61,186 bases of DNA from Planctomycetota bacterium (GTDB taxonomy: Bacteria > Planctomycetota > Planctomycetia > Gemmatales > Gemmataceae). Numbering within the stretch: the stretch's first letter is position 1; each line of letters opens with the position of its first letter. Made by a program: the position numbers and the translations under genes. Shown in pieces: positions 38,003 to 44,144 of the stretch. The notes under the pieces were generated by a model. The model was not told the DNA's origin and searched no databases. It was given only the letters and a program-made list of their open reading frames with translations. The stretch lies in the NCBI GenBank assembly GCA_021413735.1, contig JAIOPV010000047.1, positions 1-61,186 on the forward strand, read 5' to 3'.

Positions 38003-38959
38003 ATGATCGATTCGTCGCGTTCACCGCAGGAACTGGCCTCGCGATTGCATGCCCTCCGCGAGAATGTGGGGCAGGTGTTCCTCGGCAAGCCCGAAGTCAT
38101 TCGGCTCGCGCTCGTCGCGCTCCTCGCCGACGGCCACCTTCTGCTTGAGGACGTGCCAGGAGTCGGCAAGACGCTCCTCGGCAAAGCGCTCGCTCGCAGC
38201 CTGTCGTGTAAGTTCACCCGAGTGCAGTTCACACCGGACTTGCTTCCGGGCGACCTGATCGGAGTCACGATTTACCGCGACAAGACCGGCGAGTTCCTGT
38301 TCCAACCCGGACCGCTGTTCACGGAAGTTCTGCTCGCTGACGAGATCAACCGCGCCACGCCACGAACGCAGTCCGCACTTCTCGAAGCGATGAGCGAACG
38401 ACAGGTGACCGTCGATGGCGAAACGCGCCGACTTGGGCCACCGTTTCTGGTGATTGCAACGCAGAACCCGCATGAGTTCGAGGGAACGTATCCGCTGCCC
38501 GAGAGCCAGCTCGACCGCTTCATGCTGCGGGTGAAGGTTGGTTACCCGGACCGCGACGCGGAGCGTGCGATTCTCACGCAACACCGCGTCGGCGAACCGG
38601 TCGAGAATCTCAAGCCCGTGGTTGGCCCCGAGGATGTGCTCGCACTCCAATCGCATACGCGAAACGTGCGGGTGGATGCGGGCATTGCCGATTACATCCT
38701 CGATGTCGTGAATGCGACCCGTTCGCACGCGGAGATCGTCCTCGGGGCCAGCACACGCGCCTCGCTCGCTCTTTATCGCGCTTCACAGGCGCTCGCCGTA
38801 ACGGCTGGAAGAGATTATGTGATTCCCGATGATGTAAAGTCGCTGACGGAATCGGTTCTCGCGCACCGCCTCGTGACTCGTGGCTGGACCCAGGGTGGAC
38901 ACGCCGACGCTTCGCCCGTCGTTCGCGAAATCCTCGCGAAAGTCAAAGTGCCCACATGA
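38003..38959 (+). CDS. MoxR-family AAA+ ATPase
   Basis: 318 residues. Walker A GVGKTLLGK, Walker B LLADEINRA, sensor 1 in ATQNPHEFEGTYPLPESQLDRF (MoxR signature), and a C-terminal lid domain. MoxR ATPases act as chaperones with vWA-domain and DUF58 proteins. The DUF58 gene overlaps by 4 bp, so the two work together. Soluble. No good Shine-Dalgarno before the ATG at 38003. Confidence 0.95.
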   Translation: MIDSSRSPQELASRLHALRENVGQVFLGKPEVIRLALVALLADGHLLLEDVPGVGKTLLGKALARSLSCKFTRVQFTPDLLPGDLIGVTIYRDKTGEFLFQPGPLFTEVLLADEINRATPRTQSALLEAMSERQVTVDGETRRLGPPFLVIATQNPHEFEGTYPLPESQLDRFMLRVKVGYPDRDAERAILTQHRVGEPVENLKPVVGPEDVLALQSHTRNVRVDAGIADYILDVVNATRSHAEIVLGASTRASLALYRASQALAVTAGRDYVIPDDVKSLTESVLAHRLVTRGWTQGGHADASPVVREILAKVKVPT

Positions 38960-40104
38960 ACATGCAGCAACCGAGCGAATCCAAGAGCCATCCACTCGTG
39001 CTGACCGCCGAGGGGAAGGCCTGGGTTTGGGTCACGGTGTTGCTCGTGGCGATGGGCTGGTACAAGAGCATCAACCTTGTGCTGCTGCTCGGGTACTTCA
39101 TGTTCGTGCTGCTGCTGGTCAACGGTGTTCTCGCTCGTCGCCAGGGTCGCCGCGTGGTGGTTCGCCGTGAACCATCGCTGCCCGTGTACGCACAAGAAGA
39201 CACGCTCGCGCAGGTGACGGTCACGAACACCAGCACACGCCCCGCGACGATGACCATTGAGGACAGAGCAGGCGACCAGACGCTGATCTGGCTCATCCAG
39301 GGCTTGCCAGGCAACGAATCGGCTCCGTGCATGGCTCATCGCGTCTTCACGCAGCGCGGTCGGTTCGCCACGCGGGTGCGGTCGTGGTCTGGGTTCCCGT
39401 TGGGGTTGCTGCATTACGGACTTCAGGGGGAAGCAGGCTCGGCTCTCGTTGTGCTTCCGGCGCCGGGAGTGGCTGATGTGGATGGAATGCGTCGCTGGTT
39501 GCATCATGCGATGGGCGACGGACGCGCCAGGAAGTTGTTGCGTCGAGTAACGTCCGATCAGGCGGAGGTGCGAGGAGTGAGGCCGTTCCGCCCAGGCGAC
39601 TCGATTCGTTCGGTTCACTGGCGATCTACAGCACGTCGGCGAGAAATGATGGTGCGTGAATACGACGTGGCCCCGGCGCTGGATCTCATCTTGGTGGTTG
39701 AGCCGTGGCTTCCCGCGAACCCAACTCCACAGCAGCAGGAACAACTCGAAGCTGCGTTGAGTCTCACGGTCACGCTGGCACGCACTTGGATCCGAGCTTA
39801 CGGAACGACGGTGATCGTTGCGGTGGCGGGCGACCCTCGCTCCGTGCGATCGGCGTCTCCAACCGAGACGGGGCTGCGAACGGCTCTCGAACCGCTCGCC
39901 AGTGTGGTTGGTGCCGCAACGCACGCGCCGCTGGGGTCGCAGGTTTTCGGTCGTGCGATCAGTCGGTCGGTTCGGGTGTTGGTGAGTAGTCGAACTGCTT
40001 CGTCGCACGCGAACGCCTTGACGAGCAGCACAGGCCGTGCGTTCACGGCTGTGTCACCTGCGGATGGTCTGTCGTGGTATCAGCCGCCGAAGCAGCTGAA
40101 ATAA
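38956..40104 (+). CDS. DUF58 domain protein (MoxR partner)
   Basis: 382 residues, ATG overlapping the MoxR stop. Two adjacent N-terminal TM helices (about 18-56), a beta-rich region, then the DUF58 motif VRPFRPGDSIRSVHWRSTARR (about 212-233) and a vWA-like fold after it (ALDLILVVEP). DUF58 proteins are membrane-bound partners of MoxR ATPases in assembly or cofactor-insertion tasks. The stop codon abuts palindrome D. Confidence 0.93.
   Translation: MNMQQPSESKSHPLVLTAEGKAWVWVTVLLVAMGWYKSINLVLLLGYFMFVLLLVNGVLARRQGRRVVVRREPSLPVYAQEDTLAQVTVTNTSTRPATMTIEDRAGDQTLIWLIQGLPGNESAPCMAHRVFTQRGRFATRVRSWSGFPLGLLHYGLQGEAGSALVVLPAPGVADVDGMRRWLHHAMGDGRARKLLRRVTSDQAEVRGVRPFRPGDSIRSVHWRSTARRREMMVREYDVAPALDLILVVEPWLPANPTPQQQEQLEAALSLTVTLARTWIRAYGTTVIVAVAGDPRSVRSASPTETGLRTALEPLASVVGAATHAPLGSQVFGRAISRSVRVLVSSRTASSHANALTSSTGRAFTAVSPADGLSWYQPPKQLK

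Positions 40105-40216: not shown

Positions 40217-40217
<1 letters not shown>
40104..40217. repeat. Palindromic element D between convergent stops
   Basis: Inverted arms 40104-40139 and 40173-40217 share ATTCACCGCAGAGG, CGCGGAGAG and GAAAACC blocks, with a loop of about 33 bp. It fills the whole space between the DUF58 stop (40102-40104) and the minus-strand TROVE stop (40217-40219), overlapping each by one base. Confidence 0.85.
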
Positions 40218-41848
<1,631 letters not shown>

Positions 41849-41854
41849 TCAATG

Positions 41855-41876
41855 AAAACGGCCGCAAATGCGGCCG
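41855..41876 (-). terminator. Rho-independent terminator between RNA1 and the TROVE gene
   Basis: CGGCCGCA / TGCGGCCG stem with a two-base loop, followed on the minus strand by TTTTC. It ends transcription from the RNA genes before the ATG at 41818, so the protein would need its own promoter or read-through. Confidence 0.75.
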
Positions 41877-41885
41877 CGAAAGTCG

Positions 41886-42077
41886 AAAGAAAACCCGTAC
41901 AAGTTCCATCGGCGAGTCCCTTGCGGGACACTTGCCCCCTTACGGGGAGGTGCCTTCAACCACTCGGCCACTCCGCCGTCAGAGGCGGAGGTGGGATTCG
42001 AACCCACGAATCGGTTACCCGATCACCGGTTTTCGAGACCGGAAAGTGTGTACGTCGTTTGGTGTTGGATACGGGTT
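41886..42077 (-). ncRNA. Permuted tRNA-Ser(CGA)-like RNA, candidate YrlA-type Y RNA (RNA1)
   Basis: Minus-strand order: a leader; an anticodon arm CCGGT-CTCGAAA-ACCGG (42042-42026, anticodon CGA); a long variable arm; a T arm GTGGG-TTCGAAT-CCCAC (42007-41991); the acceptor 3' strand CTCCGCC (41990-41984); hexaloop UCUGAC; the acceptor 5' strand GGCGGAG (41977-41971); and a D arm with GG ending in A26 (41951). Joining A26 to the anticodon stem gives a canonical class II tRNA-Ser. Leader and trailer pair: AACCCGTATCCA (42077-42066) with TGGA (41908-41905) plus TACGGGTT (41899-41892), leaving bulge ACTTG, and inside this ACACTT with AAGTGT. The outer stem runs into TTTT. No CCA; the position after the acceptor is U, not the G usual for Ser. 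Confidence 0.85.
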
Positions 42078-42093
42078 GGTTCAGTGTTCGATC

Positions 42094-42248
42094 AAAACGG
42101 ACCGTACAAGTTCGGGAAGCGATAGAACTGAGACAGTTGCGTCGACCATTGCGCCATACCGCCCATTTCTGAGCGACAGCGGGATTCGAACCCGCAGACA
42201 CTTTCGTGTCACTGTTGTGTGTGTACGCTTCCGCCGTGGGGTACGGCC
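42094..42248 (-). ncRNA. Permuted tRNA-Leu(CAG)-like RNA, candidate YrlA-type Y RNA (RNA2)
   Basis: Minus-strand order: leader; anticodon stem 3' strand ACAGT (42215-42211); variable arm GACAC-GAAA-GTGTC; T arm GCGGG-TTCGAAT-CCCGC (42195-42179); acceptor 3' strand TGTCGCT (42178-42172); loop; acceptor 5' strand GGCGGTA (42163-42157); D arm GCG-CAATGGTCGA-CGC; and ACTGT followed by CUCAG, anticodon CAG at 42130-42128. The gene is opened in the anticodon loop. The acceptor pairs over 7 bp with three G-U pairs, plus one extra G-C pair closing loop AGAAAU. Leader GGCCGTAC (42248-42241) and GGAAGCG (42232-42226) pair with trailer GTACGGTC (42107-42100) and CGCTTCC (42121-42115). A T run follows. 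The base at position 73 is C, unlike A73 of tRNA-Leu. Confidence 0.82.
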
Positions 42249-42419
42249 AGTACAGATATGACCCGACGTGTTGCCACGGGGTTCGCGGCCCCGCCGATTT
42301 TCTCTTTGTGCTTTCACATCGCCGCATGAGCCAAACCGGGAATTTTGCTTCCGAGTTCAGTTCCATTGCCCGCTTTGCCGATATTGCCGATACGACTGGA
42401 AAGAGAACGCGAGGCTGGA

Positions 42420-44144
42420 ATGGCGAACACAAACCGGATGCGTCGAACAGTCCGGTGGCTCGCCGGTGTGGGCTTGTTCTCGTTGCCGGCGTGTACCACG
42501 CCTGGCACGCAAATAGCGGGCTCGACTCCACTGCCGCCTGCACTGACACAGCGAACGAAGCCGCCGAGTCACGCTACAACTGGTGTTCTTCCCGCAGGAG
42601 CCCAGGTCGCTGCAGACGATAACGGCGTGACTCCTGCGAAGGCGATGACTCTGCCGACCGTTCCCGCCGCAGAGACACAGGGAAAGCCGCTCCCGATTGA
42701 CCTGCCGACCGCCCTCTCGCTTTCCAACGCGAACCCGCTCGACATTCAGATCGCCGGGGAACGTCTCCGCACTGCCTCGGCACAGTTCGATCGGGCGAAA
42801 GTGCTCTGGTTGCCGAACCTCGGGCTTGGCGTCGATTACTTCCGCCACGATGGCCAGATTCAGGACGTGGCCGGTCGCGTCTTCAACACGAGTAAATCGT
42901 CGTTCTACGTCGGGGCTGGTCCGACCGCAGTCTTCTCCATCGGCGATGCACTTTACGCTCCACTCGCCGCAAGGCAGATCGTTCGCGCTCGTCAAGCGGA
43001 TGTCGAAACGGCCCGCAATGACATCACGCTGCAAGTGGCCGAGGCGTACTTCAACGTGCAGCAAGCCCGAGGCGAAGTGGCTGGTTCCATCGACTCACTT
43101 CGCCGTGCCGAGGAGTTGGTGAAATTGACGGAGAAGGTGGCCCCCGACATTGCCCCAGCGGTTGAAGTGAACCGTGCGAAGGCCGAAGCCTCACGTCGAC
43201 GGCAGGCGGTGGAGTTGGCTTACGAACGGTGGCAGGTCGCCAGCGCCGAGTTGACGCGAATCCTCAGGCTCGAACCCGGCACGCTGGTCGAACCCGCCGA
43301 GGAACCGTCGCTGGCTGTCGAGTTGATCGACGCAAACGCGACGCCCGATGATCTGCTTCCATTGGCACTCACGCACCGACCGGAACTGGCTTCGGATCAG
43401 GCTGTGATCCAGGCCGCACTCGCAAGAATTCGGCAGGAGAAGGTTCGGCCGTTCGTGCCGAACGTGGCCGTTCGTGGGGCGGGTCCGCAGGTTGCGGCAC
43501 TCGCTGGCGGCTACTTCGGTGGCGGGAAGAATGATGACGTCGGCAACTTTGGCGGTCGGTTCTCGTTTGATCTGCAAGCAGTCTGGGAAGTGCAGAATCT
43601 CGGGTTCGGCAACCGGGCGAGTGTCCGCGAACGCGAGGCGGAACAGCGGGTCGCGCTGCTGCAATTGCTTCGCACGCAGGATCGGATCACGGCTGAGGTC
43701 GTGCAGGCACACACACAAATTCGGCGTGCGGCGAATCGCATGAAGATCGCCGAGGAAGGGGTTGCCGACGCGGCCGAGACAGCCGAGAAGAATCTTCGGG
43801 GTCTGGTTCCCGGCAAGAAGATCGGTGACCGCCTTGCACTCGTGTTCCGTCCGCAGGAAGCGGTAGCCGCGGTCGCGGCCCTCGATCAGGCATACCGCGA
43901 TTATTACGCCGCTGTTGCCGATCACAACCGAGCACAGTTCCGACTGTATCGGGCGCTCGGTCACCCCGCACGCAGCCTGACGACTCCCGTTCACAAGCCT
44001 GCACCGTCTCCTCCACCAGCCGAGGCCAAACCGGCTCGTGCTGCCGGTCCTGCCATGATGCCAGCTTCGTTTATCACGCCAGGCTCGCTATACCCAGGAC
44101 TGCCGGCTGTCCCGACATCAGCCCCGCCCACGCAGCCGAAATAA
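42420..44144 (+). CDS. Outer-membrane efflux lipoprotein (TolC/OprM-like)
   Basis: 574 residues from the ATG at 42420, where a signal begins (MANTNRMRRTVRWLAGVGLFSLPAC) with a lipobox (SLPAC, Cys about 25). An N-terminal Thr/Pro-rich stretch is followed by two outer-membrane-efflux repeats (about 95-300 and 310-530) with long helical heptads (VAEAYFNVQQARGEVAGS; AEVVQAHTQIRRAANRM) typical of trimeric TolC channels. A Pro/Ala-rich tail ends the protein. It is the first gene of a tripartite efflux operon; the pump starts 69 bp later. Divergent from the two tRNA-like RNAs. Confidence 0.9.
   Translation: MANTNRMRRTVRWLAGVGLFSLPACTTPGTQIAGSTPLPPALTQRTKPPSHATTGVLPAGAQVAADDNGVTPAKAMTLPTVPAAETQGKPLPIDLPTALSLSNANPLDIQIAGERLRTASAQFDRAKVLWLPNLGLGVDYFRHDGQIQDVAGRVFNTSKSSFYVGAGPTAVFSIGDALYAPLAARQIVRARQADVETARNDITLQVAEAYFNVQQARGEVAGSIDSLRRAEELVKLTEKVAPDIAPAVEVNRAKAEASRRRQAVELAYERWQVASAELTRILRLEPGTLVEPAEEPSLAVELIDANATPDDLLPLALTHRPELASDQAVIQAALARIRQEKVRPFVPNVAVRGAGPQVAALAGGYFGGGKNDDVGNFGGRFSFDLQAVWEVQNLGFGNRASVREREAEQRVALLQLLRTQDRITAEVVQAHTQIRRAANRMKIAEEGVADAAETAEKNLRGLVPGKKIGDRLALVFRPQEAVAAVAALDQAYRDYYAAVADHNRAQFRLYRALGHPARSLTTPVHKPAPSPPPAEAKPARAAGPAMMPASFITPGSLYPGLPAVPTSAPPTQPK

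Follow-up and report, generated by a model that had tools for sequence, protein, structure and literature searches.

Tandem Y-RNA-like units mimicking permuted tRNAs beside a predicted Ro60-family gene in a planctomycete of the Gemmataceae

What kind of gene places the 3′ half of a tRNA before its 5′ half, twice in succession, is the question raised by a short region on contig JAIOPV010000047.1 of a Planctomycetota bacterium (Gemmataceae, assembly GCA_021413735.1); the whole stretch analysed, 61,186 nucleotides (nt), is called the window here. A preliminary description of this DNA had presented the two sequences, RNA1 and RNA2, as circularly permuted tRNA-Ser(CGA) and tRNA-Leu(CAG), and had left a choice between Y-RNA-type mimics with a closed acceptor end and real permuted tRNA genes. 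Judging from comparison of sequences, both units are tRNA mimics with Y-RNA-like anatomy, adjoining a gene for a predicted divergent Ro60-family protein, and belong to a wider system of arrays in relatives.

The units lie in tandem on the minus strand between a divergent outer-membrane efflux gene and the open reading frame of the Ro60-like protein, which follows directly downstream of RNA1 (Table 1). The ends of each unit pair into a stem (CCGTAC/GTACGG in RNA2, CCGTA/TACGG in RNA1) that carries GTACACAC on its 5′ side and ACTTG on its 3′ strand in both cases; as ACUUG, the latter is an element of Y RNAs. Within this stem, the module of both units runs from the variable arm through the T arm (TTCGAAT) and the acceptor 3′ strand to a loop, the acceptor 5′ strand and the D arm, so that the permuted order described earlier has been recovered in both. 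In RNA1 the module is preceded by a complete anticodon arm of 17 nt (loop CTCGAAA, anticodon CGA) and followed by two tetraloop hairpins, whereas RNA2 is without an anticodon loop and its anticodon-side helix runs into the Y stem. The acceptor strands pair at 7/7 positions in both window copies, with three G-U pairs in RNA2, as had been stated; the hexaloop said to cap them is present in RNA1 (6 nt), but in RNA2 the loop has 8 nt, or 6 with one further C-G pair. Likewise, CCA is absent from both units. The preliminary description had not included the Y stem of each unit, the two RNA1 tetraloop hairpins, the adjoining Ro60-like gene or the wider array system.

Alignments of each window copy with relatives' sequences judged orthologous (RNA1 12 rows, 11 distinct; RNA2 10 rows, 9 distinct) have been used to count the named pairs, with 500 shuffles and slid versions as controls. 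In RNA1, 97.8% of cells are paired and 12/44 pairs show changes on both sides (shuffle mean 4.2; reached by 0/500); the corresponding values for RNA2 are 94.2% and 13/37 (shuffle mean 5.9; 0/500), and the slid controls pair in 30–47% of cells. Further pair types, one of five measures, have been less decisive, being reached by 20/500 shuffles for RNA1 and 132/500 for RNA2. The capped acceptor helix shows compensatory pairs in both units (3/7 in RNA1, 4/7 in RNA2). Because of these compensatory changes we regard the structure as being under selection; on this comparative evidence the permuted fold, capped acceptor included, is real in both units, and chance folding is ruled out despite weak folding of the single sequences. 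Against the structure stand the RNA1 minimum-energy fold (z −1.46), which contains the acceptor cap and variable arm only, without the T arm, anticodon arm and outer stem, and the RNA2 z of −2.35, which is not striking; in the native window, ARAGORN finds no tRNA and Rfam no match at gathering score. That the units are tRNA genes in decay or the product of a rearranged assembly, for which the odd order and nothing else speaks, has become scarcely credible, since the same permuted order stands in separate records of relatives and the covariation contradicts it.

Does the locus, then, encode tRNAs in disguise? After rejoining in silico, ARAGORN calls RNA1 tRNA-Ser(CGA), so that the complete class II tRNA with full anticodon arm proposed earlier holds for this unit; RNA2 is called Thr(agt), and without an anticodon loop it does not yield such a tRNA. 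Among the tRNAs of its own genome (45 ARAGORN calls, at least one gene counted twice in overlapping stretches, of 76 Rfam tRNA matches), RNA1 is identical at 67/86 positions to Ser(tga) and also to Ser(cga), and RNA2 is closest to Ser(tga) with 61/86. The identity Leu-CAG for RNA2 has thus been rejected: the CTCAG concerned sits beyond the module, towards the Y stem, and relatives do not conserve it. Ser-CGA is correct for the window copy of RNA1, but the CGA loop occurs in only 4/12 orthologous rows (two of them identical), another loop in 6/12, with examples CTTTTAA (L005), CTCAAAA (L028) and CTCCAAA (L111), and the arm is absent from 2/12. The check on the genome's own tRNA genes, suggested along with the permuted-gene reading, has revealed normal Ser-CGA (L085) and Leu-CAG (L092, L094) genes in the same genome. 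Real circularly permuted genes, cut and ligated into working tRNAs, can draw on the Ser(CGA) call of rejoined RNA1; we consider them very unlikely and have rejected them, given the normal genes, the lack of CCA, the absence of a sensible anticodon in rejoined RNA2, the conserved end-paired Y stem beside a Ro60-like gene, and the co-linear tRNA and rRNA modules that share this stem in relatives. Because normal genes for these anticodons exist, the rejoined tRNAs are presumably not made. The normal genes, the missing anticodon loop of RNA2 and the changing loop of RNA1 therefore identify both units as mimics, and the closed-acceptor, Y-RNA-type mimicry first offered as the favoured of two readings is backed by the end stem, its ACUUG element, the adjacent gene and the covariation. 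The same genome also holds clusters of 21 and 10 ARAGORN tRNA genes (contig C171, 102700–105320, L094; contig C36, L095), many with low Rfam scores, that resemble tRNA arrays of phages or mobile elements.

The protein downstream of RNA1 is predicted to be a Ro60 family member. Its structural model combines a helical-repeat ring with a vWA fold matching Ro60 (mean predicted local distance difference test score, pLDDT, 80.8; predicted template modelling score, pTM, 0.59), and identity in the 11 best structural matches amounts to 13–16%. By sequence, Pfam TROVE (PF05731) does not match the window protein, for which only two weak below-cut-off matches, VWA_2 and LPD26, have been obtained, and a sequence search of the PDB found no Ro60. 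Pfam vWA_Ro60 (PF25045) is likewise without a match in the window protein; of six homologues, P0064 passes, P0099 and P0104 fall just below the cut-off, and three have no match. The Ro60-like protein occurs in 25/95 genomes of its own family and 11/19 of its own genus, and 10 genomes match in a 294-genome draw from the phylum in which scoring was limited to 4 candidates per genome. Apart from this divergent protein, the same genome has a canonical TROVE protein (contig C128; L001, L002) and a weaker TROVE match on contig C213 (L003) in a stretch with one in-frame TGA; an Rfam scan gave no match beside either.

In relatives, the common stem has been found to carry swappable modules in tandem, namely permuted tRNAs, co-linear tRNAs, bare anticodon stem-loops and pieces of 23S rRNA. 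A scan with one genome per species confirmed 259 stretches, of which the best 80 were taken as loci, with hosts among Planctomycetota, Cyanobacteria, Chloroflexota, Acidobacteria and others; together with 4 viral contigs they make 84 loci. The unit finder was built on the common stem and tuned by eye on these same loci, and with a cut-off of 14, chosen after the units had been seen, it has returned 193 units on the gene strand versus 6 on the other strand and 4 when the sequence was reversed; with the earlier cut-off of 12, 23/235 units had fallen on the opposite strand. Most units, 177 of the 193, are upstream of the Ro60-like gene and 16 downstream. At least one unit is present in 67/84 loci, at least two in 55 and at least three in 37. 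Six of the 17 unit-less loci have less than 400 bases upstream; for L039 and L051 the upstream figure is wrong because a second match was included in the span of the gene. The finder misses window RNA1, the sarcin-ricin unit of L070, two permuted units of L009 and 5/9 of the units with the 23S segment H69-71 described below. By class, the units comprise 56 permuted tRNAs, 64 co-linear tRNAs (several above the Rfam tRNA cut-off), 4 H69-71 and 4 sarcin-ricin units, 3 uncertain cases and 62 others, the last a mix of isolated anticodon loops, hairpins of no known kind and probably some spurious units. Five loci contain a three-hairpin module inside the Y stem upstream of the gene (L042 2242, L060 1701, L071 2342, L075 2275, L077 2208), and no Rfam match at E ≤ 0.5 was found at these places.

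Among the 64 co-linear units, 53 show a 5-bp, 7-nt hairpin in the position of the anticodon arm, and although no loop rule was imposed, these 53 hairpins show U33 in 49, a purine at 37 in 51 and a pyrimidine at 32 in 52. The anticodons themselves vary (48 co-linear units: TAG 10, CAT 5, TAA 4, CTA 4, CAA 3, and others), and some short units consist of the anticodon stem-loop alone. In two arrays of near-identical units, L062 and L065 (8 units, picked for likeness), the variability peak coincides with the anticodon loop. One unit of L012 (2372) contains two adjacent anticodon-type stem-loops (GTA, CGA).

Mimicry extends to the large ribosomal RNA. Nine loci match Escherichia coli 23S rRNA (19–33 nt at 88–96%) around helices 69–71 (H69-71). 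In six loci the sarcin-ricin loop, exact over 13 nt, is followed within one unit by the GTPase-associated domain, which matches 23S over up to 60 nt at 76.7% (E 1.5e-9), the order being the reverse of that in 23S. When 26 sarcin-ricin units, 25 of them distinct, are aligned, pairing extends to 95.7% of cells and 14/46 pairs show both-side changes (shuffle mean 7.2; 0/500); further pair types show no excess, since 302/500 shuffles reach them, and the one unit folded as a single sequence is weak (z −1.27). The sarcin-ricin pattern recurs in 71/217 genomes of the cyanobacterial family to which a Nostoc metagenome-assembled genome (L072) belongs, with 0 in the backward control. All 20 pattern loci that were fetched contain the GTPase-associated domain by eye and alignment (a strict pattern marked 4/20), and the finder recognised the stem in 10/20 of these extra loci. 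At E ≤ 1e-30 the Ro60-like gene is found in 98/217 genomes of this family, some as fragments, and it accompanies the RNA closely: it is present in 70/71 genomes with the sarcin-ricin RNA versus 28/146 without it (Fisher p 1.4e-32, ancestry not corrected; fragments scored as present, the exact RNA pattern being the sole sign of the RNA). In the 68 of 70 genomes mapped, RNA and gene are at most 10 kb apart in 59 and on different contigs in 7, and in two they share a contig at 0.65 and 1.4 Mb. With blastn, E. coli genomes gave no match to the sarcin-ricin unit and a match to only 15% of the H69-71 unit, short-word alignment found both, and the Rfam model of large-subunit rRNA was not listed for the 23S-like units at E ≤ 0.01. 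A search with 23S in three host genomes gave a match in one. L072 also has, at 38–121, an 84-nt match to tmRNA (46.6 bits versus a cut-off of 47) that looks like a tRNA-like domain without the mRNA part.

What purpose could such a collection serve? The modules correspond to those parts of tRNA and rRNA that are recognised by nucleases and factors. To the proposal that Ro60-type ribonucleoproteins display replicas of translation RNAs as decoys for tRNA-binding or -cutting enzymes, with the protein likely binding the units, we assign not quite an even chance. The Ro60-like protein would grip the common ACUUG-bearing stem as a handle and leave the module displayed; once expressed, the modules would serve as bait, engaging or sensing nucleases and other factors directed against tRNA or rRNA, and the real RNAs would be spared. 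Decoys are favoured because the modules are recognised parts and loop variation is concentrated at the anticodon. More tentatively, the Ro60-family protein with its swappable array may form a bait collection that guards tRNA and ribosomes against toxins and phage-triggered nucleases and diversifies by duplication and anticodon-loop change; the array so understood, an equally tentative point, would combine permuted and co-linear tRNAs with a range of anticodons, isolated anticodon loops, the H69-71 segment and a small-scale translational GTPase centre in which the sarcin-ricin loop is fused to the GTPase-associated domain of 23S.

Several observations weigh against decoys. Among the permuted modules an anticodon-type hairpin stands at the expected place in 21/56, with U33 and purine 37 in 12 of the 21, and most present the elbow and acceptor side rather than the anticodon, window RNA2 among them in being without that loop. 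A34 (9/48 co-linear units) and the stop-reading CTA (4/48) would be unusual or unknown in bacterial tRNAs, which also speaks against working tRNAs. PADLOC gave no match for 10 proteins comprising the window protein and neighbours in relatives. In PMC7790460, YrlA itself is reported to be uncut by the nuclease studied there. Finally, the same anatomy also suits a particle that tethers an RNA-decay enzyme or acts as its gate.

This last possibility, in which the module would recruit an RNA decay or processing enzyme and the particle would sort damaged tRNA and rRNA, is to be taken seriously; we rate it as doubtful by itself and yet nearly as likely as decoys. The likeness of the modules to substrates would then reflect the usual targets of the partner enzyme. 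According to PMC8394870 and PMC7790460, the Y RNAs known from bacteria act as tethers between Rsr and PNPase (in Deinococcus radiodurans), and DusA and TruB introduce modifications into YrlA. A candidate partner exists as well: a conserved family of ∼280 amino acids occurs in the downstream flank of the Ro60-like gene in 30/84 loci, including all four viral contigs (L097–L100). Two members gave no match in a Pfam scan, and the weak structural matches of its model, none at E ≤ 0.001, include several S1- and OB-fold RNA-binding proteins. In the window and its genome the family has no match, an empty answer that proves little and that tells, if anything, against decoys too. One tether, however, needs no such variety of anticodons, bare loops, sarcin-ricin/GTPase-centre and H69-71 modules in one array, and variation centred on the anticodon loop points to recognition of that loop.

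Modules might instead sequester or train translation factors or the enzymes that modify tRNA and rRNA, as regulation in normal growth, which we hold to be improbable. Intact T and D loops would fit this, as would an EF-Ts homologue downstream in 6/84 loci (L044, L046, L048, L056, L064, L083; L056 checked with Pfam), and H69-71 and the GTPase centre are sites of factor binding and modification; the sporadic presence within genus and family, however, ill suits a core regulatory role. Should the decoy reading hold, the arrays would protect the cell, by means of RNA, from toxins that cleave tRNA and rRNA and would offer a direct test for the long-open role of bacterial Ro60 and Y RNAs. Should the modules be tethers, they would name the enzymes to seek.

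Table 1. Features of the RNA locus and associated genes (window positions unless a locus is named; compensatory counts refer to the alignments described in the text).
Feature	Coordinates	Strand	Basis
Outer-membrane efflux gene	42345–44144	+	
RNA2, Y-RNA-like, permuted class II tRNA-like module without anticodon loop	42102–42246	−	Alignment and covariation
RNA2 lower Y stem, 5′ strand CCGTAC (partner 42102–42107)	42241–42246	−	100% of cells paired
RNA2 upper Y stem, 5′ strand GGAAGCG (partner 42115–42121)	42226–42232	−	93.7% of cells paired
RNA2 anticodon-stem-like helix CAGT/ACTG (ACTG at 42134–42137), linking module to Y stem	42211–42214	−	Compensatory changes in 4/4 pairs
RNA2 variable arm	42197–42210	−	Covariation alignment
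RNA2 T arm GCGGG TTCGAAT CCCGC	42179–42195	−	Covariation alignment
RNA2 loop-closed acceptor stem, 3′ strand first	42157–42178	−	87.3% of cells paired, compensatory in 4/7 pairs
RNA2 D arm	42139–42154	−	Covariation alignment
RNA2 lower Y stem, 3′ strand GTACGG, overlapping ACTTG, then TCCGTTTT	42102–42107	−	Sequence and covariation alignment
RNA1, Y-RNA-like, complete permuted tRNA-Ser(CGA)-like module	41895–42074	−	Alignment and covariation
RNA1 lower Y stem, 5′ strand CCGTA (partner 41895–41899)	42070–42074	−	100% of cells paired, invariant
RNA1 upper Y stem, 5′ strand (partner 41910–41914), one A-C mismatch in window copy	42053–42057	−	Covariation alignment
RNA1 anticodon arm CCGGT CTCGAAA ACCGG, anticodon CGA	42026–42042	−	ARAGORN on rejoined form and covariation alignment
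RNA1 variable arm	42010–42023	−	Compensatory changes in 3/5 pairs
RNA1 T arm GTGGG TTCGAAT CCCAC	41991–42007	−	Covariation alignment
RNA1 acceptor stem CTCCGCC/GGCGGAG, 6-nt loop TCTGAC	41971–41990	−	100% of cells paired, compensatory in 3/7 pairs
RNA1 D arm (GCC...GGC)	41952–41968	−	Invariant
RNA1 tetraloop hairpins CCCC GTAA GGGG and GTCCC GCAA GGGAC, after D arm	41916–41947	−	Covariation alignment
Predicted intrinsic terminator between RNA1 and Ro60-like gene (8 pairs, loop 4, T tail)	41858–41877	−	Terminator prediction
Gene for predicted divergent Ro60-family protein, 535 amino acids from GTG (533 from ATG at 41818)	40217–41824	−	Predicted fold
∼280-amino-acid family, example in L026	4561–5412		
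∼280-amino-acid family, example in L075	4041–4883		

As to the surroundings, a search for a sigma-70-type promoter at the RNA locus found none. A MoxR-type ATPase and DUF58 gene pair (window 38003–40104) converges on the Ro60-like gene. In relatives, a second vWA protein is encoded in the flank downstream of the Ro60-like gene in 10/84 loci, a Schlafen AlbA_2 protein adjoins it in one locus (L072 3979–4986, the Nostoc genome), and a CRISPR array with 16 listed repeats lies ∼1.3 kb downstream of it in Fischerella (L069 5243–6385).

How the system relates to those already known can be judged part by part. Permuted tRNA genes of algae and archaea (PMC3978253, PMC3218864) share the precedence of the 3′ half over the 5′ half; they become working tRNAs, whereas in the window normal genes exist and each unit sits inside a conserved stem. 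YrlA (RF02553) has in common with the window RNAs a T arm, a capped acceptor-like stem and a D arm in permuted order, an end-paired stem with ACUUG and a gene position beside a Ro60 protein. The YrlA covariance model, whose use on the native RNAs had been suggested, nevertheless fails to claim them, as RNA1 scores 20.0 bits (E 0.13) against a gathering score of 69 and RNA2 is not among the matches listed; the best score among 16 related loci scanned has been 46.1 bits (E 3.4e-7, L063). RNA1 adds a full anticodon arm and a long variable arm, and in relatives there are arrays that also include co-linear tRNA and 23S rRNA modules. The protein shares with Ro60/Rsr (TROVE) its predicted fold, and one homologue exceeds the Pfam vWA_Ro60 cut-off; the low identity and missing TROVE match of the window protein set it apart. 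With a paired-end stem bearing ACTTG in both units and a neighbouring gene of the Ro60 family by fold match, the RNAs would, by their anatomy and gene neighbourhood, function as Y RNAs do; we have filed them neither as YrlA nor as classical Ro60 partners because the RNAs miss the YrlA score and the protein fails TROVE. The Salmonella rsr-yrlBA-rtcBA operon also joins a Ro60 protein with a tRNA-mimicking Y RNA, and in Hughes et al. (PMC7790460) a decoy role, as competitive inhibition of an anticodon nuclease, has been raised for YrlA; unlike there, RtcA, RtcB and RtcR are absent from the six window proteins scanned with Pfam. A literature search of incomplete coverage contained, among the matches listed, no report of tRNA/rRNA-mimic Y RNA arrays. 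Mimicry of tRNA by Y RNAs is already known from YrlA-type RNAs; in the present system a branch of Ro60 proteins that Pfam TROVE does not recognise is tied to arrays that copy several functional centres of translation, among them a naturally occurring RNA that fuses the sarcin-ricin loop to the GTPase-associated centre.
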